Origin: Yoonia sp. I 8.24
Lineage (GTDB): Bacteria > Pseudomonadota > Alphaproteobacteria > Rhodobacterales > Rhodobacteraceae
Assembly (NCBI RefSeq): GCF_022096995.1
Contig: NZ_JACXGQ010000005.1
Location: forward strand, 310,001-374,000
Length of the DNA stretch: 64,000 nucleotides
Reading direction: 5' to 3'
Shown here: positions 6,993 through 40,746 of the stretch, piece after piece
Layout: each line of letters starts with the position of its first letter
How positions within the stretch are numbered: position 1 is the first letter of the stretch
Position numbers and translations under genes: made by a program
Notes under the pieces: model-generated
Database searches by the model: none
What the model saw: the letters and a program-made list of their open reading frames with translations, nothing else
Told to the model about the DNA's origin: nothing

Positions 6993-8288
6993 ATGAAATC
7001 TTTGATGAACACGGCTGTCGGTCTGTCGATGACTGTTGCAACTGCAACTACTGCATTTGCTGAAGGTCACGCAACTGAGCTGACAATCGCGATCGTGAAC
7101 AACGGTCACATGATCAACATGCAAACTGTCGCTGAAGCTTACACCGCTGAAACCGGTGTGACCCTAAACTGGGTATCACTGGAAGAAGGCGTTCTGCGCG
7201 AGCAGGTCACGTCTGACACAGCAACTGGTGGCGGCCAGTACGACATCATCAACATCGGCATGCAAGAAGCGCCGATTTGGGGTGCTGCAGGTTGGATCGA
7301 ACCACTTGAGTTCGGCGCCGACTATGACGTTGACGACATGCTGCCAGCAATGCGCAACGGTCTGTCTGCTGACGGTACGCTTTACGCTGCACCATTCTAT
7401 GGTGAATCTTCGATGGTTATGTACCGCAAGGACCTGACTGACGCGGCTGGCGTATCAATCGCTGACAACGACAGCTGGGACAACGTGATGGCAGCAGCCG
7501 CTGCAATGCACGACCCAGACAACGGGGTTTACGGTGCATGTCTGCGCGGTAAGCCGGGCTGGGGCGACAACATGGCGTTCGTCACGACTGTTGTGAACTC
7601 ATTCGGCGGTGCATGGTTCGATGCTGAAATGCGTCCAACACTGGATTCAGACGAATGGAAAGCTGCGATCAACTTCTACGTTGAGCTGCTGGGCACATAC
7701 GGCCCTCCGGGTTCTGAAGGCAACTCCTTCAACGAGATCCTCGCGCTTTATAACGAAGGCAAATGTGGCCTTTGGATCGATGCGACAATCGCGGCTTCTT
7801 TCCTTGAAGTAGACGGTGTTGCATACGCTCAGTCTCCGAATGCTGGTAACCCTGTTGGTGCGAACTGGCTGTGGGCATGGGCAATGGCTGTTCCTGCGGG
7901 CACAGATACTGCCGATGAAGCCAAAGCATTCATCGAATGGGCAACATCGAAAGCCTATATCGAAGCTGTTGGTAACCACCCAGACTTCGGTTGGGGTTCT
8001 GTTCCTACTGGGACACGTGCATCAACATATGCAATCCCTGAGTTCCAAGCTGCTGCACCTTTCGCAGCCGCAGAATTGGCAGCGATTGAATCTGCGGCAC
8101 CAGAAGCCACAGACATCAAGCCATACGTTGGTGTTCAGTTCGCTTCGATCCCTGAATTCCCAGAAGTGGGTACAGCGGTTGCACAAGAAATCGCAGCGGC
8201 ATTGTCTGGCGCGAAATCTGTCGACGACGCACTGGAAGCTGCGCAATCTGCGGCTGATGCAATCATGTCCGAAGCGGGTTACTACTAA
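6993..8288 (+). CDS. smoE: Sorbitol/mannitol ABC transporter, periplasmic binding protein
   Basis: A 431-residue extracellular solute-binding protein (family 1). The Sec signal peptide ends near residue 23 (TTAFAEG). The region QYDIINIGMQEAPIWG and the length fit the SmoE/MtlE polyol-binding group. The role is to capture sorbitol, mannitol or a related polyol in the periplasm and deliver it to SmoF/SmoG. GGGAGG precedes the ATG. It heads the operon and is separated from smoF by 170 bases with a stable hairpin, usual for highly expressed binding proteins. Polyol specificity is inferred from the mannitol dehydrogenase in the operon. Confidence 0.9.
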   Translation: MKSLMNTAVGLSMTVATATTAFAEGHATELTIAIVNNGHMINMQTVAEAYTAETGVTLNWVSLEEGVLREQVTSDTATGGGQYDIINIGMQEAPIWGAAGWIEPLEFGADYDVDDMLPAMRNGLSADGTLYAAPFYGESSMVMYRKDLTDAAGVSIADNDSWDNVMAAAAAMHDPDNGVYGACLRGKPGWGDNMAFVTTVVNSFGGAWFDAEMRPTLDSDEWKAAINFYVELLGTYGPPGSEGNSFNEILALYNEGKCGLWIDATIAASFLEVDGVAYAQSPNAGNPVGANWLWAWAMAVPAGTDTADEAKAFIEWATSKAYIEAVGNHPDFGWGSVPTGTRASTYAIPEFQAAAPFAAAELAAIESAAPEATDIKPYVGVQFASIPEFPEVGTAVAQEIAAALSGAKSVDDALEAAQSAADAIMSEAGYY

Positions 8289-8309
8289 CTCTCTTTGACA
8301 GAAATGGTA

Positions 8310-8336
8310 CAGGCCCGGTGGTTAACGCCGGGCCTG
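8310..8336 (+). other. Intercistronic hairpin after the binding-protein gene
   Basis: CAGGCCCGG (8310-8318) pairs perfectly with CCGGGCCTG (8328-8336) around a 9-base loop. No T-run follows, so it is more likely an mRNA-stabilising or attenuating structure than a full terminator. Such hairpins after binding-protein genes commonly give higher expression of the first gene than of the permeases. Confidence 0.7.
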
Positions 8337-8458
8337 TTACCCTAGCAGAACTCTTTATCGCTTGGCTTGATCGCGGCATATCCAACTTGTGCTGATCGCC
8401 GAATGAGCGCCCGCCCAATAATCACGACGCAACCCCGAATGAACAGGTGACCCGAGCT

Positions 8459-25681: not shown

Positions 25682-27527
<1,846 letters not shown>

Positions 27528-27531
<4 letters not shown>

Positions 27532-27815
27532 CAGCGAAACCGGATAAATCCACGGATGATATCACGCGCCAAGCAAGGCGGATGAAAGCGATCCGCGATA
27601 ATCCGGGGCCAAGCCCGCTGCGTGGGATTGGCACGTTTGGGATGATTGGCTGGTCTGTTGCTGTGCCAACGGTTGGCGGTGCGTTCTTGGGTCATCGGCT
27701 TGATGGGAAAGCGCCACAATCCTTTTCGTGGACCATTGCGCTGATCTTAGGCGGTGTTGTGGTGGGGGCGTTCATTGCCGCATCTTGGATGAGTAAAGAA
27801 GGAGACGACAAATGA
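27528..27815 (+). CDS. atpQ: N-type ATPase AtpQ (AtpI-like) subunit
   Basis: A 95-residue protein with a charged N-terminus and two membrane helices (about residues 35-55 and 66-88), the layout of AtpI/AtpQ. AtpI-type proteins help c-ring assembly and may move Mg2+; the Q form is specific to N-ATPase operons. Assigned by position and topology. ATGA overlap on both sides. Confidence 0.85.
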
Positions 27816-28111
27816 TGGCTGTTAATTGGGCTGCCGTCGCGCTGGGCGGCGGTATCGGAACCATAACGGGCGCGCTCTTCTTCTGGGGCTTAGCGTTCGG
27901 CATGCGGCATGCGCTGCGCAGTGAAAGCCCGGTAAAGGCATTGGTGCTTAGCGCGGTTTTGCGCATAACTGTTTTGCTTGCTGTGGGGTGGATCGTTGCC
28001 ACGCAGGCCGGACCCTGGGCCGCTGTTGGTTATGCTCTGGCGTTCTTTCTGACACGATTTATTGCCACGACATTTGCGCCCATTGGGCCGCGTGGGGCGT
28101 CGGCGTCATGA
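27812..28111 (+). CDS. atpR: N-type ATPase AtpR subunit
   Basis: A 99-residue protein with about three membrane helices, a single buried-looking Arg in the third (ALAFFLTRFIATTF) and position between atpQ and atpB, as expected of AtpR. In the family, AtpR is proposed to interact with the c-ring carboxylates. A second in-frame ATG follows immediately at 27815, so the exact start is uncertain by one residue. Confidence 0.83.
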   Translation: MMAVNWAAVALGGGIGTITGALFFWGLAFGMRHALRSESPVKALVLSAVLRITVLLAVGWIVATQAGPWAAVGYALAFFLTRFIATTFAPIGPRGASAS

Positions 28112-28797
28112 ACTTAACCCCCGATAACACGGTCATGTTCACGCTATGGGGCCTGCCGATAAATGCCACCATTTTCTATACTTGGTTTGTGATGATCCTA
28201 CTGACGGGCGCATCAATGTTGATCACCCGCAACTTGCGCCCAGACGTGCCGCCAAACAGGTGGCGCACAACGCTAGAGGTGATCGTCAAAGGCATTCAAA
28301 GCCAGATCGCGGAAATTGCGCCGGGCCCGTCGCGGCATTTGCTGTACTTCGCGGGGACGCTGTTTCTATTTGTTGCGGTATCGAATCTGTTGCTTGTTGT
28401 TCCGGGGTTTGAGCCCCCGACATCATCACTTTCGACCACAACTGCGCTTGCGATATCGGTATTGATTGCGGTGCCGCTGTTCGGTGTAAGCAGCCGGGGT
28501 CTTGGTGGCTATCTCAAGACCTATCTTGAACCATCGTTCATCATGCTGCCGTTTAACATCATTTCAGAATTCTCCCGCGGTATTTCGCTCGCAATTCGCT
28601 TGTATGGCAACATCATGAGCGGGGCCGTGATCGCGGCTATTTTGCTGACGGTAGCTCCTTTCTTCTTTCCTGTCGTGATGGATGTGTTGGGTCTGCTGAC
28701 CGGCATGATCCAAGCCTACATCTTTGCAATCTTGGCGACGGTTTACATTTCCAGCGCCACTGCGCCTCCTTCCCAGCCTGAAAAGGATATCTTATGA
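28108..28797 (+). CDS. atpB: N-type ATPase a subunit
   Basis: Membrane stator subunit a (229 residues, about five or six helices). The conserved stator Arg lies in EFSRGISLAIRLYGNIMSG (about residues 155-173). It forms the ion half-channels with the c-ring. The frame is open from 27988, but ATG 28108 overlaps the atpR stop as ATGA, like the other junctions in the operon. Confidence 0.93.
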   Translation: MNLTPDNTVMFTLWGLPINATIFYTWFVMILLTGASMLITRNLRPDVPPNRWRTTLEVIVKGIQSQIAEIAPGPSRHLLYFAGTLFLFVAVSNLLLVVPGFEPPTSSLSTTTALAISVLIAVPLFGVSSRGLGGYLKTYLEPSFIMLPFNIISEFSRGISLAIRLYGNIMSGAVIAAILLTVAPFFFPVVMDVLGLLTGMIQAYIFAILATVYISSATAPPSQPEKDIL

Positions 28798-29081
28798 CTG
28801 AACTTGCTATCATTGCCGCCGTTTCAATCTTCACCGCAGGTTTGACCGTTTCTTTCGGCGCGATCGGACCCGCACTGGGTGAAGGGCGCGCTGCCGCCAA
28901 TGCCCTGAATGCAATTGCGCAGCAGCCCGATGCGGCCCCGACAATATCACGCACGTTGTTTGTTAGCCTTGCAATGATCGAATCAACGGCGATCTATTGC
29001 TTTGTGGTCGCCATGATCCTGATCTTCGCGAACCCGTTCTGGATAGCAGCGCTTGCGGCCTCGCAGTCCACAGGGGGCTAA
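28794..29081 (+). CDS. atpE: N-type ATPase c subunit
   Basis: A 95-residue two-helix proteolipid. Helix 2 has the ion-binding Glu63 followed by Ser64-Thr65 and Tyr68 (MIESTAIY), the pattern of sodium-binding c subunits. Helix 1 has Glu30 (GPALGEGRAA) where sodium F-ATPases have Gln, giving two carboxylates per subunit. From memory, N-ATPases were predicted to be sodium pumps, but a characterised Burkholderia enzyme was reported proton-specific, so coupling ion is open. Confidence 0.93.
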   Translation: MTELAIIAAVSIFTAGLTVSFGAIGPALGEGRAAANALNAIAQQPDAAPTISRTLFVSLAMIESTAIYCFVVAMILIFANPFWIAALAASQSTGG

Positions 29082-29084
29082 ATC

Positions 29085-29834
29085 ATGTCCATCGACTGGA
29101 TGACTGTTGGTGCGCAGATTGCCAATTTTTTGGTACTTGTCTGGCTGCTAAAGCGGTTCCTTTACCGCCCCATTCTCGATGGAATCGACGCCCGCGAAGC
29201 CGAGATTACCCAACGTATGACCGAGGCTGTGGATGCAAAAGATGGGGCGGAGGCAATTACCGAGGAATACCACGAAAAATTGCAGAAATTGCATGTGTCG
29301 CAGGCTGAAATGTCCGAAACCATCCGAAAGTCGGCCGAGGATCAGCGCGATACCTTGCTGGCTGAGGCGCGCAATCAAATGGAGTCTGAACGCGCAGGCT
29401 GGCAGGCGCATATGGATGATGAGGCGCATAAATATACCGCCCGTTTGCAGCTTGCGGGCGCAGATGCGTTGTTATCGTTGACCCGCAAAGCATTGAACGA
29501 TTTGGCCGATGAGACGCTAGAGGATCGTATCGCGCGCAATCTGGCGCGACAGCTGAAACCAATGGCAGCAGATCTGAACGCTGCTGCTGGCGATGGGGCC
29601 TTAGCGATCGTTGTCAGCCACAGCGCCTTGGCGCAATCCGTGCAGGACGATTTGGTTGCAGAGCTGGAAATCATGTTCCCGCAGGTAGCGGTCACATTCG
29701 AAGTGGATGAGGCCCAATCGCCGGGGATTATGTTGCGCATTGGTGGGGCGCAGCTGGCGTGGACCGTTGATTCATACATCGACGGGCTCGCGGCCTCGGT
29801 CGATGACCGGCTTGGCAACGGGCCAAGGGTATAA
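29085..29834 (+). CDS. atpF: N-type ATPase b subunit (long form)
   Basis: A 249-residue stator subunit: a short N-terminal membrane helix (about residues 5-25, [19 protein letters not shown]), a long charged coiled-coil (about 35-140) and an extra C-terminal domain (about 145-249). The extension makes it about 90 residues longer than ordinary b subunits and resembles a fused delta-like part, in keeping with the lack of atpH in this operon. Confidence 0.9.
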
Positions 29835-29836
29835 CG

Positions 29837-31375
29837 ATGCAAACTGACCCTTCTATAATCGATACCAATCTTGAAAAGATGGTGAAAGCGTTGCTGGAAA
29901 GCCCAGCCCCCGCTCCGCAGTTAAGCGAAATCGGGCAGGTTGCCGAAGTTGCGGACGGGATTGCCGTTGTGACGGGGCTAGAACGCGCTTTGTCAGACGA
30001 GGTTCTGGCGTTTGAAAATGGTGTGCAGGGTATTGTTCTTGATCTTGAACCCGGCCGTTTGGGCGTTGTGCTATTGGGTCCTTCCGACAATATCGGGGTC
30101 GGACAAAACGTCTTTCGCACGCATACCGTTGTCAGCACACATGTGGGCCCTAGCCTGCTGGGACGCGTCGTTGACGCACGTGGGTTGCCCATTGATGATA
30201 AGGGCCCCACAGATAGCGACTCCGTGCGCCCAGTTGAATCGGAAGCCCCAGAAATTCTGGAACGCAAAGCAATTTCGCGACCTCTAGCTACGGGGATCAA
30301 GGCCGTAGATGCGGCAGTGCCAATCGGTCTGGGGCAACGCCAACTGGTGATCGGGGATCGACAAACCGGCAAGACATCTTTGGCGGTGGACACAATCTTG
30401 AACCAAAAGCACACGGATGTGGTTTGCATCTACTGTGCGATTGGACAGCGCGGTGACGCCGTGGCCAAGGTCATCGGCGCGATCACGCAGGGTGGCATGC
30501 GAGAGCGGACTGTCATTCTGGCCGCAGGTGACGAGGAGGCCGCAGGGCTGGCCTACATCGCACCTTATAGCGCGCTTACGATTGCAGAATCCTTTGCCGC
30601 GCAGGGGCGCGACGTGCTGGTAGTCTTGGATGATCTTACCCACCATGCGCGATCTTATCGCGAATTGTCTTTGTTGCTGCGACGCCCGCCGGGCCGCGAG
30701 GCGTTTCCGGGCGATATTTTCTATATCCATGCGCGCTTGCTAGAACGCGCAGGCCAATTCACAGAGGCCGCGGGAGATGGGTCGATCACGGTTTTACCCG
30801 TGGTCGAAACACAGGCTGAAAACCTATCTGCCTATATTCCGACAAATCTTATTTCGATCACAGATGGGCAGATTTACCTCTCTCCACGACTGGTCCGAAA
30901 AAACCAATTTCCTGCGGTGGATTTAGGCGTTTCCGTCAGCCGCGTGGGCGGAAAGGCACAAAGCAAAGCGTTTCGATCCGTTGCGGGGAACCTGCGCGTG
31001 ACCTTGTCGCAGTTTGAAGAATTGGAAGACTTCGCGCGGTTTGGCACCCGTCTTGACGATGCGACGCGCGCGCGTCTGCAACGGGGTGCTGCTGTACGGG
31101 CATCATTGCGGCAATCCGAACGTGATCCCATTGCGGCCGTTGAACAGTTGACGGTGTTGGTTGCGGCAATGGATGGCCAGTTCGATGGGCTGGACGAGGC
31201 AGGGATTTTTGCGGTTATGGCAGAACTCAGGGCCGCTGCCGCCCATGAATTGGATGATATCGCACAAATGATAGCCCAGAATGAACCCATTGATGACGCG
31301 ATACGCGCGCGAATGGCTGCGCTAGGCCAGCAGGCGCGGGCGTCGGTAGGGGGCACCAATGACCCAATCACTTGA
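29837..31375 (+). CDS. atpA: N-type ATPase alpha subunit
   Basis: Non-catalytic alpha subunit, 512 residues. Walker [10 protein letters not shown] (about residues 173-181), the alpha-specific [16 protein letters not shown] region and VSRVGGKAQ are present. Two bases after atpF; its 3' end overlaps atpG by 17 bases. Confidence 0.94.
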
Positions 31376-32246
31376 GGTTCTGGCCCGTCGCACCACAAGC
31401 ATGCAAGGCATTCGCAGTGTCGTGCACACCATGAAATCACTGTCGGTCATCAACGCGGCCCCCTATGAACAGGCCGCCCGCGCGATTGAGGCTTATCATC
31501 AGACAGTGCTGACCGGATTGCATGCGTTCTTGTCCCAGTCACCTCCAATGAAAGCGCAGGCATCGCGGTCTGCGTCGCAAGTGATCATTGTTTTCGGGTC
31601 GGATCACGGGCTGTGCGGCAACTACAACGATGCTTTGGCAGCCCAAGCGGCGCCCAATATAGACCCCGAAAAGATCGTCCTATGTGTGGGCGCACAAATG
31701 GCAGGGGCGCTTTCTGATCTTGGTATCAAAGTCGAAAAAACCTTCATGCCACCTGCTTCGGTTGACGGAATCGGGCGGCTTGCGAACCTGTTGACGCTTG
31801 AACTGGACGGTATTCGCATGAAAACCCCCGGTTCAGATATTGCCGTTACGGTCGCTTTTTTTGCTCAAGGCGCGCAAGGATTACAAACTGCTGAGATAAA
31901 ACCGCTTCTCCCGCTTGATGCTGGCCTCATCGAGGGGTTTCGGAGCAAGCCTTGGGTGTCGCGTAGCTTGCCGTTTTTCACGATGCCCCCGGATGACTTG
32001 TTTTTGGCGCTGATCCACGAACATCTTTTTGCCAGCCTGTATCGGGCTGCGGCCGAAGCGATGGTGACTGAAAACGCCGCGCGCCTTGCGCTCATGCAGC
32101 AGGCTGAACAATCGGTTGATGACAGGTTAGACGCGCTAAAAGCCGACACACGTGCGATGCGTCAAAGCGAAATTACGAATGAGCTTTTGGACGTGATTAT
32201 CGGGTTTGAGGCCTTGAAAAAGGACAAAAGACGCAAGCGCGGGTGA
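31359..32246 (+). CDS. atpG: N-type ATPase gamma subunit
   Basis: A 295-residue central rotor shaft: the N-terminal coiled helix ([20 protein letters not shown]), the [12 protein letters not shown] central-domain motif and the long C-terminal helix ([20 protein letters not shown]) match F-type gamma. It is more divergent from housekeeping gamma than alpha or beta are, as usual for the N-type. Last gene of the operon. Confidence 0.9.
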
Positions 32247-32547: not shown

Positions 32548-33288
32548 ATGGCCATAACGACCCCAAGCAATGCGCCGGGTCAGGGCGCACTTGCCCCCAA
32601 TGCGCTGGGGCGGATGGGGTATGCTGACATGATCGCGGCAATGCTTTGGGTCGTTTCTAGCCAAGGCTATTACTTGATCAAAGATAGTTTCGCGTTTGAA
32701 GCTGGGTATGATAGCGCGCCGATACTCTTCACCGCCTACTATCTTGCTTGGAGCGCCATCGCGCTATGGTCTTTCCGATCTTTGATCGCCGAAAGCGTGA
32801 ACCCCAACACGATGACACGCGAAGCGGTAATACTTGTATCGATCCTTGGGTGCTTTGCGCTGTTTGTGATTTATGGCCTACCGCTTTTGCCAAATGTATC
32901 CGAATTGCGCGCGCCCTCTGAACCGCCAGATTTCATGTTCGCATCGGCTTGGTACTATTTGCCAAAATCAGCTGAAATTCTGTTTCAACAAGTATTGGCC
33001 GCAGCGATCATTCTCACCGCGGGGCGTGCCGGGTATCGCCTGTCCACGATTACTTTAGGGATGGCCTTGGCCTTTGGCAGTTTCCATCTGCTGTTAGCAT
33101 TTGATGGTTTCACCCCGACATATGTCACCCGTTTTACCATCTCCGCCACCGCGTTCGGGGCCTTGCTTCCTTATCTCTATTTACGGGCCAATAGCGGGTT
33201 TCGGTGGGCTTATAGCCTGCATTGGGGGTTCTACGCCGTCGATGCGGTGCTGACACATTTCATCCTTGCCGCGCCCCCTTGGGCATAA
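32548..33288 (+). CDS. Seven-helix membrane protein of unknown function, redox cluster
   Basis: I do not recognise a family. The 246-residue protein has about seven predicted helices, with a loop (about residues 112-130) rich in Pro and acidic residues. His residues at the ends of helices 5 and 7 (GSFHLLLAF, SLHWGFYAV, LTHFIL) could bind haem, but that is a guess. The ATG at 32548 has a weak ribosome site; ATG 32614 is preceded by GGGGCGG and is a real alternative. It is 27 bases upstream of the ferredoxin and shares its strand, so it is probably the first gene of the redox operon. Confidence 0.7.
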   Translation: MAITTPSNAPGQGALAPNALGRMGYADMIAAMLWVVSSQGYYLIKDSFAFEAGYDSAPILFTAYYLAWSAIALWSFRSLIAESVNPNTMTREAVILVSILGCFALFVIYGLPLLPNVSELRAPSEPPDFMFASAWYYLPKSAEILFQQVLAAAIILTAGRAGYRLSTITLGMALAFGSFHLLLAFDGFTPTYVTRFTISATAFGALLPYLYLRANSGFRWAYSLHWGFYAVDAVLTHFILAAPPWA

Positions 33289-33315
33289 TCAGAAAACACT
33301 GACTGGATAGAGAAC

Positions 33316-33525
33316 ATGACAATCAAAAGTATCAGCGGCTGCATCGGGTGCGAGGAATGCGTAAAGTCTTGCCCTTGCGATGTCATCCGCATGGACGGGA
33401 ACAAGGCGTATATCGCCCATGCTGCCGACTGCCAAATCTGCCACCTTTGCCGGATGTATTGCCCCGTTGATGCCATCGAGATGGCACCGGAAAAATCCAT
33501 TCCTGTGATCTTGCCTTGGGGATGA
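33316..33525 (+). CDS. Dicluster 4Fe-4S ferredoxin
   Basis: A 69-residue protein with two classic cluster motifs, CIGCEECVKSCPCDVI (about residues 9-24) and CQICHLCRMYCPVDAI (about 40-55), each C-x2-C-x2-C-x3-C. No signal peptide, so cytoplasmic. It resembles the small electron-carrying AprB/NapF-type proteins. It overlaps the following cytochrome-like gene region, and so is a likely electron donor to that membrane protein. Confidence 0.9.
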   Translation: MTIKSISGCIGCEECVKSCPCDVIRMDGNKAYIAHAADCQICHLCRMYCPVDAIEMAPEKSIPVILPWG

Positions 33526-33527
33526 CT

Positions 33528-34199
33528 ATGAAGCTTTCTGCACAAAAATATGCGATCATCGCGGGCCTTTTCATTTTCGTCGGGCTGCCGGTCTTATTCT
33601 ACACATTGGGCGATGCCCCACGCCGTACGGTGCTAAAAGAAGCGATTTCCATCGCGACGCTCTTGGCTCTTTCGATGATGCTGGGGCAATTCTTTCTCGC
33701 GCGGAGCAACGAAACCCTGCTGAGCCTGTTCAAACCGCCGCAAGTTCAGAAATTCCATAAATATATCGCCTATTCCGCAGTCGTCGTCATTCTGCTGCAC
33801 CCGGCACTGATCGTATTACCGCGTCATTGGGAAGGCGGGATAAAACCGTGGGACGCATTTATCACCATGATCACTGACCTTGGAAATATTGGTATCATTC
33901 TAGGCATTGTGGCTTGGTGCTTGTTGCTGATGCTGAGCATCACCGCGTTTTTTCGCAAGAAACTGATCCCGCGTTTTAAGCTGCGCTATCGCGGTTGGCG
34001 GTATTTTCATGGGGGGCTCGCGGTGACGTTTACCGTGTTGGCGCTGTGGCACGCAATTGCCTTGGGCCGCCATACTGACGCTGCCATGTCGGCCTTCTTT
34101 ATCACTGTGGCCGTGCTTGGTTTTGCGATGCTGGCCCAGATGTATTGGGGCGCAAAAACGCCCAAATCGAAACCGACGTCCAAAGGGGCCGTGACATGA
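33528..34199 (+). CDS. Ferric-reductase-like haem-b membrane protein, redox cluster
   Basis: A 223-residue protein with six predicted helices and paired helix histidines: FHKYIAY and LLHPALIV in helix 3, YFHGG and LWHAIALG in helix 5. Four His in two helices fits bis-haem ligation in the ferric-reductase-like fold. It would carry electrons from cytoplasmic ferredoxin to the periplasmic flavoprotein. ATG 33522 overlaps the ferredoxin stop, but 33528 has TTGGGG at a better distance. Its stop overlaps the flavoprotein ATG (ATGA). Confidence 0.82.
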   Translation: MKLSAQKYAIIAGLFIFVGLPVLFYTLGDAPRRTVLKEAISIATLLALSMMLGQFFLARSNETLLSLFKPPQVQKFHKYIAYSAVVVILLHPALIVLPRHWEGGIKPWDAFITMITDLGNIGIILGIVAWCLLLMLSITAFFRKKLIPRFKLRYRGWRYFHGGLAVTFTVLALWHAIALGRHTDAAMSAFFITVAVLGFAMLAQMYWGAKTPKSKPTSKGAVT

Positions 34200-35941
34200 C
34201 CGATCTAAACGACACAACATCACCAACCCGCCGCGAGTTCCTTGCCCTATCTGGCGCGACCGCTGGCATCGCCTCGCTTGGCATGGCGGCATGGGCGCAA
34301 AACAATGTTGAAATTGACGTGGACGCGATTACCAACACAGACCACGTGACGGATGTCTTGGTTATTGGTGGCGGAATGGCGGGGCTTTTTGCTGCTGTAA
34401 AGGCGCATGATGCGGGCGCGGCCACAATGATCGTGTCCAAAGGACGCTTGGGCGCATCCGGCCTGACGCCGTTTGGCAAGGGTTTCTTCGTGTTTGACCC
34501 GGATACAGAAAGCGGCACCATCGATGATTTCGTCGATACAGTGTCACGTTCGGCGCTTGGCACAAACAACCCGACTTACACGCGCCAGTTGGCGGTGCAC
34601 TCGATGGCCCGCGCGCAGGAACTGCGTGATTGGGGCTTCTTCGATCAAACGCTGGCGAATCGCCCGTTTATTAAGCCTATCGAAGAACGTAACATCCCGC
34701 TGCTTGAACGCGTTGTTGTGACCCATCTAATCAAAGAGGACGGGCGCATTGCGGGTGCTGCAGGTTTCCGCGTCGATGCCGAAGAAACAGTCACTATTCG
34801 GGCCAAATCAGTGATTCTTTGCACAGGTGCGGGCGGGTTTAAGCCAAGCGGTTTCCCACTTGGCGATCTGACCCATGATGGCACGATCATGGCCTATGAA
34901 ATTGGTGCCAAGGTCACAGGCAAAGAATGGAACGATGGCCATTCGACCCGCAGCGTGAACCCCGCCGCCTGCTATGACAATTGGGGCGACATGTTTGAAC
35001 GTGTCCCATCGACAAATGGCGTCGAGGTGCATCACGATCTGGGCGTCGACATCAACTACCGCGCCTATGTGACGGGCAACCCGGTCTCTGGTGGGACCGG
35101 TGCGGTGCAGCCTACCGAAGCCGTAGACGGCGGGCCCTATGTGCCCGAGGAATTTCAAAATGTTGGTCAGCCTTCGGGTGACGGGGAAGGTGGCGCGCTC
35201 GGTGCCCCCCCCTCTGGCGAAGGCGGTGCCCCCGGTGGCCCGCCCCCCGGCTTTGCGGCAAGTGCGAATGTGGGCGGTGCCTCGGCTGGGATGGCGATCC
35301 ATAAATCCGAAGGGCTGGTTCCGTTTGATGATCGTTGCGCGTCTAACATCGCAGGTCTTTATGCGGCGGGCGATGCGCTTGGTAGCCATATGGCGGGCGG
35401 TATTTACACACAAATCGGGTCGTCGCTTGCGGGGTCTGCCGTGCAGGGCGCCATCGCGGGCGAGGCGGCAGCAGAATTTGCCGACACAGTGGAAACCCCC
35501 GTCATTAGCGATGATCGCCTGATTGAATTTACCGACGAAATCCTTGCGCCCTTGCGCCGCGAGGCAGGGTATGGCCCCGCATGGGTTACACAAACCCTAC
35601 AAGGCATCATGATCCCGAACTTCGTGCTTTATATCAAAAAGGCGTCGATGATGACCGCCGCGCTCGCCTATGTTGAAGAGCTGCGGGACCACCATGCCCC
35701 GATGTTGCGCGCAGCCAACATGCACGAACTACGCTTGGCCCATGAAACCCGCAATATGATCCTGAGCGCGGAAATGAAGATGCGCGCCTCGCTGATGCGC
35801 ACGGAAAGCCGCTGCAGTCACTACCGGCTGGATTATCCAGAGGTGGACGACGAAAACTGGCGCGCCTGGATCAATATCTACCGTGGCACGGACGGTGCAA
35901 TGCAGCTTGAAAAGCAGCCTTTCGATACATGGCCTACCTAA
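34196..35941 (+). CDS. Tat-exported FAD flavoprotein, fumarate-reductase/AprA superfamily
   Basis: A 581-residue oxidoreductase. A twin-arginine signal (SPTRREFLALSGATAG, Arg12-13) is followed by the FAD dinucleotide motif VLVIGGGMAG (about 54-63). The second FAD segment is GLYAAGDALGSHMAGG, and the C-terminal RTESRCSHYRLDYP (about 535-548) is the fumarate reductase/adenylylsulfate reductase capping signature. A Gly/Pro-rich low-complexity insert (about 324-355) interrupts it. The Tat signal puts it in the periplasm with FAD bound. Substrate unknown. Coupled by ATGA to the haem-b gene. The frame is open upstream to 34145, but 34196 is the natural start. Confidence 0.88.
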   Translation: MTDLNDTTSPTRREFLALSGATAGIASLGMAAWAQNNVEIDVDAITNTDHVTDVLVIGGGMAGLFAAVKAHDAGAATMIVSKGRLGASGLTPFGKGFFVFDPDTESGTIDDFVDTVSRSALGTNNPTYTRQLAVHSMARAQELRDWGFFDQTLANRPFIKPIEERNIPLLERVVVTHLIKEDGRIAGAAGFRVDAEETVTIRAKSVILCTGAGGFKPSGFPLGDLTHDGTIMAYEIGAKVTGKEWNDGHSTRSVNPAACYDNWGDMFERVPSTNGVEVHHDLGVDINYRAYVTGNPVSGGTGAVQPTEAVDGGPYVPEEFQNVGQPSGDGEGGALGAPPSGEGGAPGGPPPGFAASANVGGASAGMAIHKSEGLVPFDDRCASNIAGLYAAGDALGSHMAGGIYTQIGSSLAGSAVQGAIAGEAAAEFADTVETPVISDDRLIEFTDEILAPLRREAGYGPAWVTQTLQGIMIPNFVLYIKKASMMTAALAYVEELRDHHAPMLRAANMHELRLAHETRNMILSAEMKMRASLMRTESRCSHYRLDYPEVDDENWRAWINIYRGTDGAMQLEKQPFDTWPT

Positions 35942-35963
35942 TCATTTCAAAGAGGCACTACAA

Positions 35964-37196
35964 ATGACCCAAACACCACTGAACCTTACAACGGTTCTTG
36001 CGATTGCTGCGCTGGCGCAAACAGCAACCGCGCAGCCCACATTCCCGATTGTCGATACGGGGCAAAGCAGCTGTTTTGACGCAAGCAACGCTATTGAGTG
36101 CCCCTCAGCAGGCGTCGCGTTTTACGGCCAAGATGCCCAGTTTGATGGCACCCAACCCAGCTATACCGACAATGGTGATGGCACTGTCACCGACAATGTC
36201 ACGGGCTTGATGTGGGCCAAGACGCCTGACATGAACGGTGACGGCGATATTCTTGCCGAAGACAAGATGAGCTATGAGGCTGCATTGGCTGGTGCCGCGG
36301 ATTTTGATCTTGGCGGCTATGACGATTGGCGCCTTCCGACCATCAAGGAAATGTATTCGCTGATGGATTTCGATGGCGTTGATCCATCGGGATATGAGAG
36401 CGAGGACACCTCTGGCCTTATCCCGTTTATTGACCGCGACTACTTCGACTTTGCCTATGGCGACACCGACGCGGGTGAGCGGATTATCGACAGCCAGATG
36501 GCGTCAAGCACGCTGTACGTCTCGGGCACGAACGCCACAAATGACGCAGCTTTGTTTGGGGTCAACTTCGCGGATGGTCGGATCAAAGGCTATGGCCTTG
36601 AATTGCATGGACGCGACAAGACATTCTTTGTCATGTATGTGCGCGGTGACACGGGCTATGGCGTAAATGATTTCACTGATAACGGCGACGGCATTGTAAC
36701 GGATGCATCCAGTGGGCTGATGTGGACCCAAGCCGACAATGGCGAGGCAATCAGTTGGGAGGATGCGCTGGCATATGCGCAGACAGCCAATGCCGAGACC
36801 TACCTTGGCCACGACGATTGGCGCGTGCCCAATGTCAAGGAATTGCAAGCGATCGTAGATTACACACGTTCACCTGATACAACGGATTCGCCCGCGATTG
36901 ATCCAGTTTTTGCGAGCGCCGCAATCACCAATGAAGCCGGGCAGGTCGATTATGGGTGGATCTGGTCGTCGACCACCCACGCCAATTGGACCGACGTAGA
37001 GGGCGGGGCTGGTGCTTACGTCAGCTTTGGCCGGGCGATGGGCTATTTCGATGATGTCTGGACGGATGTGCATGGCGCAGGGTCGCAGCGATCTGATCCA
37101 AAGCTTGGTGATCCCGCAGATTTTCCAAAAGGAAACGGCCCTCAGGGTGATGCACAGCGTATTTTCAATTTTGTCCGTCTGGTACGCGACGGGTGA
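35964..37196 (+). CDS. Secreted protein with two DUF1566 (Lcl) domains
   Basis: A 410-residue protein with a Sec signal peptide (about residues 1-24, ending TATAQ) and two copies of the Lcl/DUF1566 fold, each opening YTDNGDGTVTDNVTGLMWAK-like (about residue 60) or FTDNGDGIVTDASSGLMW (about 235) and containing DDWRLPTIKEM / DDWRVPNVKEL. The domain is often found on bacterial surface proteins and adhesins; function unknown. It begins 22 bases after the flavoprotein with AGAGG before the ATG, so it is part of the redox operon. The Asp-Asn-Gly repeats may bind Ca2+. Confidence 0.85.
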   Translation: MTQTPLNLTTVLAIAALAQTATAQPTFPIVDTGQSSCFDASNAIECPSAGVAFYGQDAQFDGTQPSYTDNGDGTVTDNVTGLMWAKTPDMNGDGDILAEDKMSYEAALAGAADFDLGGYDDWRLPTIKEMYSLMDFDGVDPSGYESEDTSGLIPFIDRDYFDFAYGDTDAGERIIDSQMASSTLYVSGTNATNDAALFGVNFADGRIKGYGLELHGRDKTFFVMYVRGDTGYGVNDFTDNGDGIVTDASSGLMWTQADNGEAISWEDALAYAQTANAETYLGHDDWRVPNVKELQAIVDYTRSPDTTDSPAIDPVFASAAITNEAGQVDYGWIWSSTTHANWTDVEGGAGAYVSFGRAMGYFDDVWTDVHGAGSQRSDPKLGDPADFPKGNGPQGDAQRIFNFVRLVRDG

Positions 37197-37288
37197 TCAT
37201 GACAGTCTGATCGTACCCGTGATTTGAATGCACGCAGTACAGCGACCGACACGCAGATAGACGCGGGCGAAAGCGCATAAGCGGTGGG

Positions 37289-37641
37289 CTGCAGTTGTTT
37301 GTGGGGACCGCGCTGTTTATCTTTGCCACGGCTGCAATTGGCTTCATGCGCGCCACGTTGGCCCGGTCCATCGCGTAGTTCGCCATGTTTCCCATGCTTG
37401 TTTACCTGCCGGTTGTGCTGCTTTCAGGCGGCGTCAGTCCGGTCGAAAACCAACCCGATATCCTGCAAGAGATCACTTGGTTTTTGCCGTCATGCCACGA
37501 TCTCGACTTGGCCAAATCTGTTCGGAACTGCATGGCTTGACGCGGTCTGGACTCAAATCTTGACAATCGCAGGACTTGGAACCGTCTTTTTTGTTGATCA
37601 GCCCTAGCCTATTCCGACGCTCCATCAAAGCTGGCGGATGA
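37289..37641 (+). pseudogene. Decayed ABC-2 transporter permease (YhhJ/YbhR-type) fragment
   Basis: Only C-terminal permease pieces are readable. One frame gives LQLFVGTALFIFATAAIGF, an in-frame TAG, then YLPVVLLSGGVSPVENQPD and ITWFLPS. The next frame gives LDAVWTQILTIAGLGTVFF, and a third SLFRRSIK. In intact relatives these run together at the end of an ABC-2 permease. No N-terminal half or partner ATPase is present, so this is a remnant from an insertion or deletion event. It explains most of the 526-base gap between 37196 and 37723. Confidence 0.7.
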
Positions 37642-37722: not shown

Positions 37723-38253
37723 TTATTCTGTGCGTGTCGCCCAAGTTTGATAGGCGGCGCTATCCGCGTCACAAACTTCCAACGTCAGGGCTTTGATTTG
37801 GTTGGTGTCGCTGCGGCCAGACCGTGTGTCCTCACCGACGGTAAAGCACATGTCGGTTGCAGAGGCAGGTGTGATCGTACCTTCGCCAGAAAAGACGAAA
37901 GATTGCGCTGCGCTGCCGTCACAATCGGCCAGCGCAAGTGTGGCGCCTGCTTCGGTCGACGCGGCCTGCGCGCAGACGTCGAATTCTGGCATGTACAGCA
38001 GACCGTCGGCGAATTTTTCGGTGTCGAAAATTTGGTCGACAAGCAGTTCACCAAGTGGGCTGTAGCACGTGTGGCCTTGCAAGCCGTTGGCCGGATCTGC
38101 CTGCGCACCTTTGCCGCCGGCGATATCAACACAATAGCCGTCTTGTGTGTTGTCGAGGATATCTGTCAGATAGATTTCGACATTCTCGGCTTGTGCGGTG
38201 CTAGCGACAAGCATGGCGCTGATGAGGCCTGAGAAGAAAATGCGGTTTAACAT
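37723..38253 (-). CDS. Secreted ricin-B-like (beta-trefoil) protein
   Basis: A 176-residue protein with a Sec signal peptide (to about residue 22, TAQAE). The rest resembles a single ricin-type beta-trefoil: repeated YCVDIAGG, DVCAQAASTEAGATLALADCDGSAAQSF and the final SAAYQTWATR close to a QxW element. Such domains usually bind sugars; the ligand is unknown. AGGA precedes the ATG. It lies downstream of the second DUF1566 gene on the same strand, 57 bases apart, and is likely co-transcribed. Confidence 0.72.
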   Translation of the reverse strand: MLNRIFFSGLISAMLVASTAQAENVEIYLTDILDNTQDGYCVDIAGGKGAQADPANGLQGHTCYSPLGELLVDQIFDTEKFADGLLYMPEFDVCAQAASTEAGATLALADCDGSAAQSFVFSGEGTITPASATDMCFTVGEDTRSGRSDTNQIKALTLEVCDADSAAYQTWATRTE

Positions 38254-38310
38254 AAGTGTATTCCTTTTTTAGATGGGGCCCGTATTTTGGACCCCGTTGA
38301 GTTTCGTATC

Positions 38311-39519
38311 TTAACGTACACAGCGCACAAGGTTGTCGGCGCGATTGTAGTCACAAGCGTTGATAGAACAGGTCGTGTCTTCGGTCATTTCTTGGTCAGC
38401 GGTTGACTTGATAGAAGACCGCTGCGCGCCTGCGCCATGCCAGTCGGTGAATTCTGTCTGCTCGCCTGCCATGCTCAGCGCTTTGCCGAATGCGATGACG
38501 TTGGCGTAGTTTTTCCAGTCGCCGAATGTCGTGCTGGTCCAGAAATCCAGTGTTTCAGAATCCTCTGTGATCATGAAATAGTTTTCGTCGATCGCGGGAA
38601 AACCGGTACGGCGATAATCCACGATGCTTTGCAGTTCTTTGGAGGTCGGGAGATACCAATCATCATGACCGCCAAGCTCAAGCGCTTCGCAATAGGCAAG
38701 CGCATCGTCCCACTCGCGGCGTGCGCCATCGTCAGATTGCTGCCACATGCGGCCGGTGGCTGCGTCGGTGACGGTACCATCGCCATTGTCGGCAAATTCA
38801 TTCACCCCGTACACGCCTTCGTCGCCGCTCACACAGCGCACGTAGTTGCCTGGTGCTTGGCTTGCCAGACCACTCGTGGCGGCAGCGCCAGTGTAGAAAT
38901 TCAGACCTGTCCCGTAAGATTTGATATGGCCATCCGCAAAGTTAAAGCCAAAGGCGGCTTGGTTCATACCGTTTTGCACGGGCCCTTTGATATAAAGCGT
39001 GTTGCTCCAATATTGGCCCGCAAAGATCATTTCACCGTCAGGATAGAAGAAGTCAAAGACGCTTGTGTCGATGTAAGGGGTTGGTTCGCCTTCTTCTGGT
39101 GTTAGTAGCTCGCCGCGATTGTCGGCCAGTGAATACAGCTCTTTGATCGAGGGCACGCGCCAATCAGTGCGATCACCAAGTTCAAGCGCTTCGCAATAGT
39201 CGAGCGCATCAGCGTATTGAAGACGTTCGTTTTGCGGGGTTTGCTGCCAGACAAGCTGTGTGTTGTCGTCCAAAACTGTGCCGTCGCCATTGTCGGTATA
39301 TGAAGCCGCCAAACGTGGGTGCTGGGTGTCTTGACCGTACAAGGCTTCGCCGACTGCGGGGCAGGTGATTTTTACGCCGATATTGTCATAGCAAGCATCT
39401 TGCATTGTATCGACGATCGCGAATGTCACATCTTGTGCCATGCCTGCTTGGGTGGAAAGAGCCAGCAGTGCAGGTGTCAGGTAGGACGCCAGCGTAAATG
39501 GGCTAAGACGGCGTGTCAT
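38311..39519 (-). CDS. Secreted protein with two DUF1566 (Lcl) domains, paralogue
   Basis: A 402-residue paralogue of the protein encoded at 35964. The signal peptide ends near TQAGMAQ (about residue 29). Two Lcl repeats are visible, at about residues 70-215 (YTDNGDGTVLDDNTQLVWQQ, DWRVPSIKELYSL) and 235-400 (FADNGDGTVTDAATGRMWQQ, DDWYLPTSKELQSI). Extra cysteine pairs near the C-terminus (CSINACDYN) may form disulphides. Strong AAAGGAG before ATG 39519. Downstream of the AraC-type regulator and upstream of the ricin-B-like gene. Confidence 0.85.
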   Translation of the reverse strand: MTRRLSPFTLASYLTPALLALSTQAGMAQDVTFAIVDTMQDACYDNIGVKITCPAVGEALYGQDTQHPRLAASYTDNGDGTVLDDNTQLVWQQTPQNERLQYADALDYCEALELGDRTDWRVPSIKELYSLADNRGELLTPEEGEPTPYIDTSVFDFFYPDGEMIFAGQYWSNTLYIKGPVQNGMNQAAFGFNFADGHIKSYGTGLNFYTGAAATSGLASQAPGNYVRCVSGDEGVYGVNEFADNGDGTVTDAATGRMWQQSDDGARREWDDALAYCEALELGGHDDWYLPTSKELQSIVDYRRTGFPAIDENYFMITEDSETLDFWTSTTFGDWKNYANVIAFGKALSMAGEQTEFTDWHGAGAQRSSIKSTADQEMTEDTTCSINACDYNRADNLVRCVR

Positions 39520-39636
39520 AAGAAAATCTCCTTTGAGAAAGCTAAACATTACACCTGCCTTATACGCTGCCCTGCGGGCTAAATCGTCCTCGCCGCTAAG
39601 CCCGTACGCGCCAAAACGGAAAAATTTGTTTAAAGC

Positions 39637-40746
39637 TCACGCTAAGTCGCGGCGATATTGCGACGGGGTCATTCCTGTAAGCTTTTTGAACGCTGTGTTG
39701 AATGGAGATTTTGAATTGAATCCGGACGCATAGGCGATGTCCAACACGGTATTTTCTGCCTGCGCGGGGTCTTTCATCGCCTGTTGGGCCGCTTGGATGC
39801 GGTATTCATTGACGAATAGGTAAAAGTTCTTCTCATAGCGTGCGCTGATCACTTCGGTCAGGTGATGGCGTGGCACAGCCATCCGTTTCGAAAGCGTTTC
39901 GATCGTCAGGTTTGCGTCCAGATAAGGACGCTGTGATTGCATGAAAGTGTCAAGCCGCTGCGCAATGACATCTGCACGCTCAGGGCTTAAACCTGACCGA
40001 TCATATCGGGGTTTGGTTGATACCAATTCCTGCGTGTCAGGGGCAGGGGCCGTGTCGTCAGTAGGGGCATCGGCGTCAAAAACGCGATCTTGCTGAAGGC
40101 CGAAAAAGCTCAATCCCAAAATGGCGGCGATCAGGGCAAAAAGATGCAGATCCATCAGGTTGGGTTGGGAAAGAAACGCCGCGAGAAACAGTAAAAGAAA
40201 GACGCCGGTTACGCCCGCCGTCATCGCGCGGAGCCATCCCAAGGTGATGTGGTTCGGCAGGTTGGAGTAATGCCCAACCACGGCGTTCGCATGTCGATCT
40301 AACCGCCGAAATATCGCGATAGAATACGCGAGAAGAATACCGAGATTGATCGCGCCAACAACGCGAATGGACGTGCTAAAGGTGGCGACTTCAGGGTTTG
40401 GTGGGACGGGTGCCCAGCCGGTGATAATCTGCACCACACTCACCGCGAAAAAAGGCGCGAAATGTACGAGGTTTCGGGAAGTGATCCGGGTGACGTCCCC
40501 TGTCAGGCTTCCAACATATAGCCACATAAATGGTCCGTAGGTGAGCGGATAAACAAGGTTAGCGCGCAGAAGTGGGACTTTAATCTCTGGCCAAAGCTGC
40601 ATTACCGCACCAGAAACCAGCGGAAGCGCCATAAGGACCATCCAGACCGCCAAAATGGTGTCATTTAGCGACTTTGTACGCTTATTTAGTAAGAAAAACG
40701 TCGTAAAAAGCGCCTGGACGCTGCCGACAAAAAGCAAATGTTCCAT
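39637..40746 (-). CDS. Membrane-anchored AraC-type transcriptional regulator
   Basis: A 369-residue protein with about seven membrane helices in the first 225 residues and a C-terminal AraC DNA-binding domain (about 265-369; NTVLDIAYASGFNSKSPFNT holds the second HTH). This topology would let membrane sensing act directly on DNA. It lies 117 bases upstream of the second DUF1566 gene on the same strand and is the obvious candidate regulator of the DUF1566/lectin genes. An FNR-like box is centred 76.5 bases upstream. Confidence 0.9.
   Translation of the reverse strand: MEHLLFVGSVQALFTTFFLLNKRTKSLNDTILAVWMVLMALPLVSGAVMQLWPEIKVPLLRANLVYPLTYGPFMWLYVGSLTGDVTRITSRNLVHFAPFFAVSVVQIITGWAPVPPNPEVATFSTSIRVVGAINLGILLAYSIAIFRRLDRHANAVVGHYSNLPNHITLGWLRAMTAGVTGVFLLLFLAAFLSQPNLMDLHLFALIAAILGLSFFGLQQDRVFDADAPTDDTAPAPDTQELVSTKPRYDRSGLSPERADVIAQRLDTFMQSQRPYLDANLTIETLSKRMAVPRHHLTEVISARYEKNFYLFVNEYRIQAAQQAMKDPAQAENTVLDIAYASGFNSKSPFNTAFKKLTGMTPSQYRRDLA

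Follow-up and report, generated by a model that had tools for sequence, protein, structure and literature searches.

A conserved ferredoxin–cytochrome b–flavoprotein gene unit of bacteria with a predicted Tat-exported flavin enzyme

Three neighbouring genes, encoding a dicluster ferredoxin (Fd), a membrane protein of the Ferric_reduct family (FRD) and a flavoprotein with a twin-arginine-like motif (FAD), constitute a conserved unit beyond chance, because the order Fd–FRD–FAD holds in 71 of the 81 loci that were compared, and their products are likely to pass electrons through the membrane to an exported flavin enzyme. The starting point was a stretch of 64,000 nucleotides from Yoonia sp. I 8.24 (hereafter the window), in which the initial annotation had described five codirectional genes at positions 32548–37196; the five open reading frames were found there as described, all on the + strand. 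In order, they encode a membrane protein of 246 aa (TM7, 32548..33288), Fd (33316..33525; a 69-aa dicluster [4Fe-4S] protein, Fer4_21 with E 9e-10), FRD (33522..34199; Ferric_reduct PF01794 with E 1.4e-11), FAD (34196..35941; FAD_binding_2 and Succ_DH_flav_C in Pfam) and a secreted-looking protein with two Lcl_C/DUF1566 stretches (Lcl1, 35964..37196; PF07603 with E 8.7e-43). What had been noted as several ATGA overlaps comes down to two at most: one between FRD and FAD, and one between Fd and FRD, provided that the first ATG is the true start of FRD (an alternative ATG 6 bp downstream would leave a gap of 2 bp), the remaining intergenic gaps of the five-gene set being 27 and 22 bp.

Relatives were sought in 84,980 species by a pattern-based scan that used an alignment of seven FAD sequences. 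It yielded 161 relatives, the best 80 of which were fetched and together with the window form the set of 81 loci (some counts use 83 loci). The orders other than Fd–FRD–FAD were Fd-FAD (five loci), FRD-Fd-FAD (two), FRD-FAD (two) and FAD alone (one). With starts set by alignment, the spacing between Fd and FRD is at most 15 bases in 69 of the 71 loci that have the common order. Over these 71 loci, pairwise identities are correlated among Fd, FRD and FAD (Mantel r 0.65–0.70, with 0 of 500 permutations as high), a result that shared ancestry would give too. The 81 loci come from about ten phyla. Sorted by record labels, which can be wrong in the case of MAGs, the 80 fetched loci comprise Bacteroidota (26), Alphaproteobacteria (18), Desulfobacterota (13), Gammaproteobacteria, Campylobacterota and Spirochaetota (5 each), unspecified Proteobacteria and Calditrichota (2 each), and Planctomycetota (Phycisphaerae), Omnitrophota, Fermentibacteria and Sumerlaeota (1 each); they are partly non-independent, L035 and L040 being one strain. 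FAD is infrequent within the family of the window, with 3 of 295 genomes giving a match at E<=1e-30, and class-wide it was found in 1 of 190 genomes at E<=1e-40, i.e. the window's own. Two plasmid records carry FAD, a close relative in Paracoccus and a distant one in Ilyobacter (Fusobacteriota).

Conservation of the gene set across genomes, which the initial annotation had named as a check, thus holds for Fd–FRD–FAD, but the full combination of five genes does not hold generally. TM7 in particular, which had been counted as part of the system, is an accessory gene: five of the 80 fetched loci have a homologue (in one case just a fragment), all five of which we take to be Rhodobacteraceae, and FAD was not matched in 10 of the 11 family genomes that have TM7, so that a core role is not supported. 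The seven helices that had been ascribed to it do appear in its structural model, albeit at low confidence (pLDDT 57). TM7 had no Pfam match at E<=0.1 (for the window protein none at E<=10), no PHROGs match, and no fold match at E<=0.001 from the low-confidence model; a CPBP/Rce1-like match was obtained for one of five members (E 2.1), and the poor model gave no fold match to go with it. In L098 the gene lies near Lcl and a longer Ferric_reduct-type protein, and in L099 near the Ferric_reduct-type protein. In Sulfitobacter marinus (L015 7168-8328) TM7 runs in frame into a fragment similar to the longer Ferric_reduct-type protein found at other loci, and then into Fd, which by eye looks like a fusion of the genes through a deletion.

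For FRD, the four helix histidines reported for this six-helix protein proved to be a constant feature. The window protein has His at positions 79, 93, 102, 163, 177 and 184, of which H79, H93, H163 and H177 are invariant in 28 of 28 aligned sequences and at a fraction of 1.00 of the 76 in a second alignment. The Pfam match to PF01794 and these four conserved haem-ligand candidates identify it as a member of that cytochrome b family, and from family and His pattern it is predicted to be an MsrQ/NOX-like transmembrane cytochrome b with two b haems. An NAD-binding domain was looked for in the window protein and gave no Pfam match at E<=0.1. The membrane gene is the variable element of the locus. 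L083, L085 and L087 (including the Vibrio and Aliiglaciecola loci) have a Ferric_reduct protein with NAD_binding_1 and FAD_binding_8 domains, the one of L087, which is among the five Fd-FAD loci, being encoded upstream; L080 (Spirochaeta) has a Fer4_5 NapH-like protein in place of FRD, with Fd beside FAD; and in Ilyobacter (L005) the membrane protein combines Fer4_5 and FMN_bind. A membrane donor near FAD was looked for in L068, L079 and L086 and none was seen.

FAD had been read as a Tat-exported flavoprotein of the fumarate-reductase/AprA superfamily, with which its Pfam families, its N-terminus and its PDB matches are all consistent. A twin-arginine-like motif (RRxF in the window) occurs in 80 of the 82 homologues assessed (out of 85, three of which were not parsed), the two others being L033 (GRQF) and L078 (short N-terminus); an earlier, narrower motif pass gave 57 of 59, with 26 unparsed. 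With a hydrophobic region that was recognised by eye, FAD is a predicted Tat substrate. Its supposed position outside the characterised families was borne out as well: all 25 NCBIfam matches listed (of 88) stay below their cut-offs, the best among those listed being PRK08275 (155 bits against a cut-off of 587), and the APS reductase equivalog TIGR02061 scores 66 bits against 642. A single-sequence search of the PDB gave succinate dehydrogenase 7d6v first (1.8e-25) and the PAPS reductase alpha subunit 8a8o_A second (2.1e-20), and with a 60-sequence profile the top match was AprA (2e-31), PAPS reductase alpha ranking fourth; Sdh1 is also among the matches. When the AlphaFold model (pLDDT 77.7, pTM 0.84) was searched with Foldseek, PAPS reductase alpha (8a8o_A) came first (2.8e-23, TM 0.63), with FrdA, AprA and SdhA close behind (TM ~0.6 for FrdA and SdhA); by this comparison the model has the fold of the flavoprotein subunit of fumarate reductase or complex II.

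The residues that go with that fold are different. The Arg of the HGxNRLGGNSL motif, which we take to be the catalytic Arg of fumarate reductase and complex II, aligns to the invariant Thr405 of FAD; the motif itself is absent, and no Arg was found within FAD residues 396-410. Asn74 of AprA, presumably a substrate residue, aligns to the invariant Phe98. Judged by the residues that can be aligned, a comparison that excludes those of the capping domain, which could not be aligned to APS/PAPS reductase, FAD has the superfamily fold without the active-site Arg of SDH/FRD and the Asn74 of AprA, and is neither a fumarate reductase nor an APS reductase; a plain fumarate reductase is ruled out by the active-site residues together with the NCBIfam scores. 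The approximate capping-domain region (34967..35314, +; residues ~258-373) lies outside the matched stretches of five alignments, save for a weak match to NadB where the region ends: the alignments with AprA and PAPS reductase span profile positions ~45–222 and 380–582, and those of Sdh1 and NadB extend to positions ~256–261. The later part of the region is rich in Gly and Pro (residues 301-360 contain 16 and 10 of them, respectively) and is unstructured in the model, with pLDDT <50 at residues 324-356 and 359-368. In Ilyobacter polytropus (L005 6538-9856), two extra FAD paralogues without a Tat signal lie beside the exported one, as do TatA/C genes.

Fd, with its two CxxCxxCxxxC motifs and nine Cys in total, is the dicluster ferredoxin that it had been taken for. 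Its homologues measure 69–72 aa, are strongly conserved up to a C-terminal Trp-Gly in an 80-sequence alignment, and are present in 78 of the 81 loci, the exceptions being two contig ends (L046, L061) and the apparent chimera L034, a MAG contig in which unrelated DNA precedes the surviving C-terminus of Fd (8050-8420). The cytoplasmic location ascribed to it is probably wrong. Polyferredoxins and chains related to them lead the PDB matches, along with many from PsaC and some from RnfB, and the beta subunit of PAPS reductase (8a8o_C) is the 23rd match (5.8e-7), over residues 1–58 (residues 1-60 of 8a8o_C) and colinear from residue 1. That enzyme is an alpha2beta2 assembly with a ferredoxin-like beta subunit (PMC10322725). 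FAD and Fd match both subunits of this one solved APS-reductase-type enzyme. Moreover, Fd is kept with FAD where the membrane gene is of another type. In the Ilyobacter locus the gene directly after Fd is a Tat-less FAD paralogue, and the exported FAD is the third.

We consider Fd to be probably the beta subunit of FAD, exported with it, and not a cytoplasmic donor. In the topology of the initial annotation, a cytoplasmic Fd would feed the inner face of FRD, which would then reduce the periplasmic flavoprotein directly; such an arrangement would suit a ferredoxin in which no signal peptide was seen by eye and whose gene adjoins FRD, and it would supply an FRD that has no NAD(P)H domain and hence needs some donor. 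We nevertheless hold it to be rather unlikely, since Fd is retained both where FRD has FAD/NAD domains of its own and where a NapH-like or FMN-binding protein replaces FRD, and since in 4 of the 81 loci (L068, L079, L080 and L086), at which no Ferric_reduct gene was scored, it adjoins FAD. The FAD/NAD-domain cytochromes at L083, L085 and L087 would have no need of a cytoplasmic donor, which is why we place Fd with FAD as a presumably co-exported partner. The other half of the initial proposal, a path from the membrane to the periplasm that ends in a Tat-exported flavoprotein, is supported.

The mechanism that we favour, and to which we give about an even chance, is that of an AprAB-like heterodimer docked on the membrane cytochrome. 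Fd and FAD would form a flavo-iron-sulfur heterodimer that is folded in the cytoplasm and exported through Tat on the twin-arginine signal of FAD, with Fd as a hitch-hiker. In the periplasm this pair would dock on FRD with its two predicted b haems, and electrons would flow outward and reductively, from quinol or another donor via one haem b to the other, through the Fd clusters to FAD, and on to an extracytoplasmic organic or surface-bound substrate. Quinol would be the most likely donor because FRD shows no NAD(P)H domain. The substrate or its surrounding matrix would be bound or presented by Lcl_C and other secreted proteins of the locus. Counted against this explanation were the rank of 8a8o_C behind polyferredoxins, the first place of succinate dehydrogenase 7d6v for FAD, the position of the Ilyobacter Fd, the three loci without a visible donor, the loci without Lcl (see below) and the identity correlation that is also expected from shared ancestry. 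The same chain of cofactors would also serve for an oxidase, in which the exported flavoprotein oxidises its substrate and electrons pass via Fd and FRD into the quinone pool. Some members of the superfamily are dehydrogenases (the PDB matches include succinate dehydrogenases) and many of the host bacteria are aerobic; relatives are nonetheless found in Desulfobacterota and Spirochaetota, which are mostly anaerobic lineages, and the FAD/NAD-domain cytochromes at the Vibrio loci suggest outward flow. Neither point is decisive; we consider the oxidative direction improbable.

The link that had been proposed between the DUF1566 protein and the system turned out to be a real association of Lcl_C with the FAD locus. 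Counting matches to the cluster profile at E<=1e-5 within 11 kb of FAD, fragments included (e.g. L018), Lcl homologues are present in 27 of 83 loci, the other 56 having none in the examined stretch. Among fully flanked loci, all of which enter the observed figure, this amounts to 21 of 60 against an expected 0.49, the expectation being derived from the gene rates of 23 genomes that were picked partly with knowledge of the Lcl-bearing loci. The Lcl-bearing loci belong to five phyla (Alphaproteobacteria, Bacteroidota, Desulfobacterota, Campylobacterota and Spirochaetota), to which one unspecified Proteobacterium is added. In those 23 genomes (the window's and 22 reached via the loci), 16 of the 41 Lcl genes counted by hand lie at the FAD locus, where 0.19 would be expected, and Lcl is missing altogether from 6 of these genomes. 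In the family, 18 of 295 genomes carry Lcl; among the three that carry FAD, it is at the locus only in the window's genome, one of the others having a single match on another contig and the other none. A glycan-binding role of Lcl1 is plausible, by analogy, because the C-terminal domain of Legionella Lcl resembles C-type lectins in its fold and is a binder of sulphated glycans (PMC11162425). The window has a second two-stretch Lcl_C protein, Lcl2 (38311..39549, -; PF07603 with E 4e-44), which lies between a ricin-B lectin and an AraC regulator (37723-40746, -); this trio is regarded as a separate unit because it recurs in the same order in L102, which comes from a genome without a FAD match. 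Between the two Lcl genes lies what by eye is a decayed ABC-2 permease-like fragment (37284-37607), and the third Lcl gene of the window's genome is found ~4 kb from a longer Ferric_reduct protein.

Several other families recur near FAD. LytTR-type regulators are present at 35 of 83 loci (by a profile to which response regulators of other kinds may contribute), LytS-type kinases at 17, CotH at 23, two small secreted families with a GPPP motif at 21 and 18, VTC and DUF4956 at 13 each, Cthe_2159 at 7, and sulfatases, named by eye and from the Paracoccus annotation, at 9. CotH is found in 11 of the 23 genomes, in several of them at or beside the FAD locus. YHYH is found in 12, but with just one match inside a FAD stretch (L008) and one at the edge of another (L038), so that the case for it as a partner is weak. 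In one genome (G492:C7:146155-151130) CotH, Lcl_C and YHYH occur together away from the FAD locus, and therefore may form a unit of their own. Some pel operons of Gram-positive bacteria likewise come with CotH, a polyphosphate polymerase and DUF4956 (PMC7112168), so that CotH, VTC and DUF4956 may belong to a grouping of their own. Both the small GPPP-motif secreted proteins (e.g. L048 7012-7284 and L036 204-593) and LytS-type kinases that have a Pro-rich loop are repeatedly found next to FAD, which itself contains a GGPPPG loop. A [QGR]GPP motif was counted in 37 of 464 ORFs near FAD against 11 of 451 ORFs, a post hoc comparison, the motif having been picked after seeing the sequences. The idea of a polyphenol or humic substrate, taken from the Pro-rich motifs, was dropped, as there was no evidence for it.

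The neighbours also bear on the possibility of an assimilatory reductase, in which the flavoprotein would reduce extracytoplasmic ferric iron or another metal for uptake or detoxification. FRD belongs to the Ferric_reduct family, iron transporters occur in some flavinylated MsrQ-like clusters (PMC8238504), and a recurrent small neighbour weakly matches LTXXQ (6e-4) and Metal_resist (9e-4), below the cut-offs; metal-transport families, however, were not found among the annotated subset of neighbour clusters, and we judge this function very improbable. Upstream in the window (25712-32246) lies an ATP synthase-type operon, N-ATPase-like by eye; genes of this type also precede the unit in Aliishimia (L006/L016), and L055 shares one gene cluster. 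An FNR-type box upstream of the genes scores 8 out of 10, but 56 sites in the window reach that score or a higher one, and a site of this type (matched by <5% of random windows) was found upstream in 3 of 19 relatives against ~1 expected, so that FNR-type regulation is not convincing. A promoter scan gave 3 sites against 4.3 expected, none of them on the + strand upstream of TM7; terminator-like sites numbered 15 against 7.4 expected, and a scan for viral relatives found none.

Compared with known systems, the locus combines familiar parts in a different way. Like MsrPQ and the MsrQ-like flavinylated systems, it pairs a PF01794 membrane protein, predicted here to be diheme, with an enzyme outside the cytoplasm, but MsrP is a molybdoenzyme, whereas the enzyme here is a FAD protein with Fd, and Pfam found no molybdopterin family among the five genes. 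The MsrQ-like clusters are defined by flavinylation (PMC8238504), whereas an FMN-binding domain (FMN_bind in Pfam) was not found in the five genes of the window, and is present in the Ilyobacter relative. FccA, UrdA and Listeria FrdA are flavoproteins of this superfamily, too, which are exported and connected to electron carriers of the membrane; they use multihaem c or FMN-binding domains (PMC8238504) where Fd and a PF01794 cytochrome are found here, and FAD, unlike the extracytosolic fumarate-reductase-like enzymes, has no catalytic Arg motif. AprAB and the Methanothermococcus PAPS reductase (8a8o) share, by homology, an alpha subunit of the fumarate-reductase superfamily and a dicluster ferredoxin-like beta subunit. 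They reduce nucleotide sulfates in the cytoplasm (in part from PMC10322725), and differ from the present pair in the Tat signal, the unmatched capping region, Phe98 at the Asn74 position and the membrane cytochrome partner. Legionella Lcl has the same PF07603 domain as Lcl1, but carries its C-terminal domain on a collagen-like stalk (PMC11162425), whereas Lcl1 has two Lcl_C stretches and no stalk by eye. A search of the open-licence literature for the parts of the system found no published description of it. While modular extracytoplasmic electron transfer as such is known, the best reading of the sequences is that an AprAB-like enzyme on an MsrQ/NOX-like cytochrome b would be a different version of it.

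This conserved and patchily distributed module, twice seen on a plasmid record, adds to the routes by which bacteria send electrons out of the cytoplasm. If the proposed mechanism is true, the AprAB-like pair would introduce a new type of cargo for Tat, one that works with a NOX-like cytochrome. A farther-reaching and quite unlikely possibility is that FAD represents an unnamed class of exported AprAB-type enzymes in which an open Gly/Pro-rich loop replaces the capping domain and allows for a large or surface-bound substrate, and which together with Lcl_C, CotH and the GPPP proteins would make up a redox-driven system for surface assembly or matrix modification across phyla. For DUF1566/Lcl_C and several unnamed secreted families, in any case, the locus provides a shared and testable genomic context.
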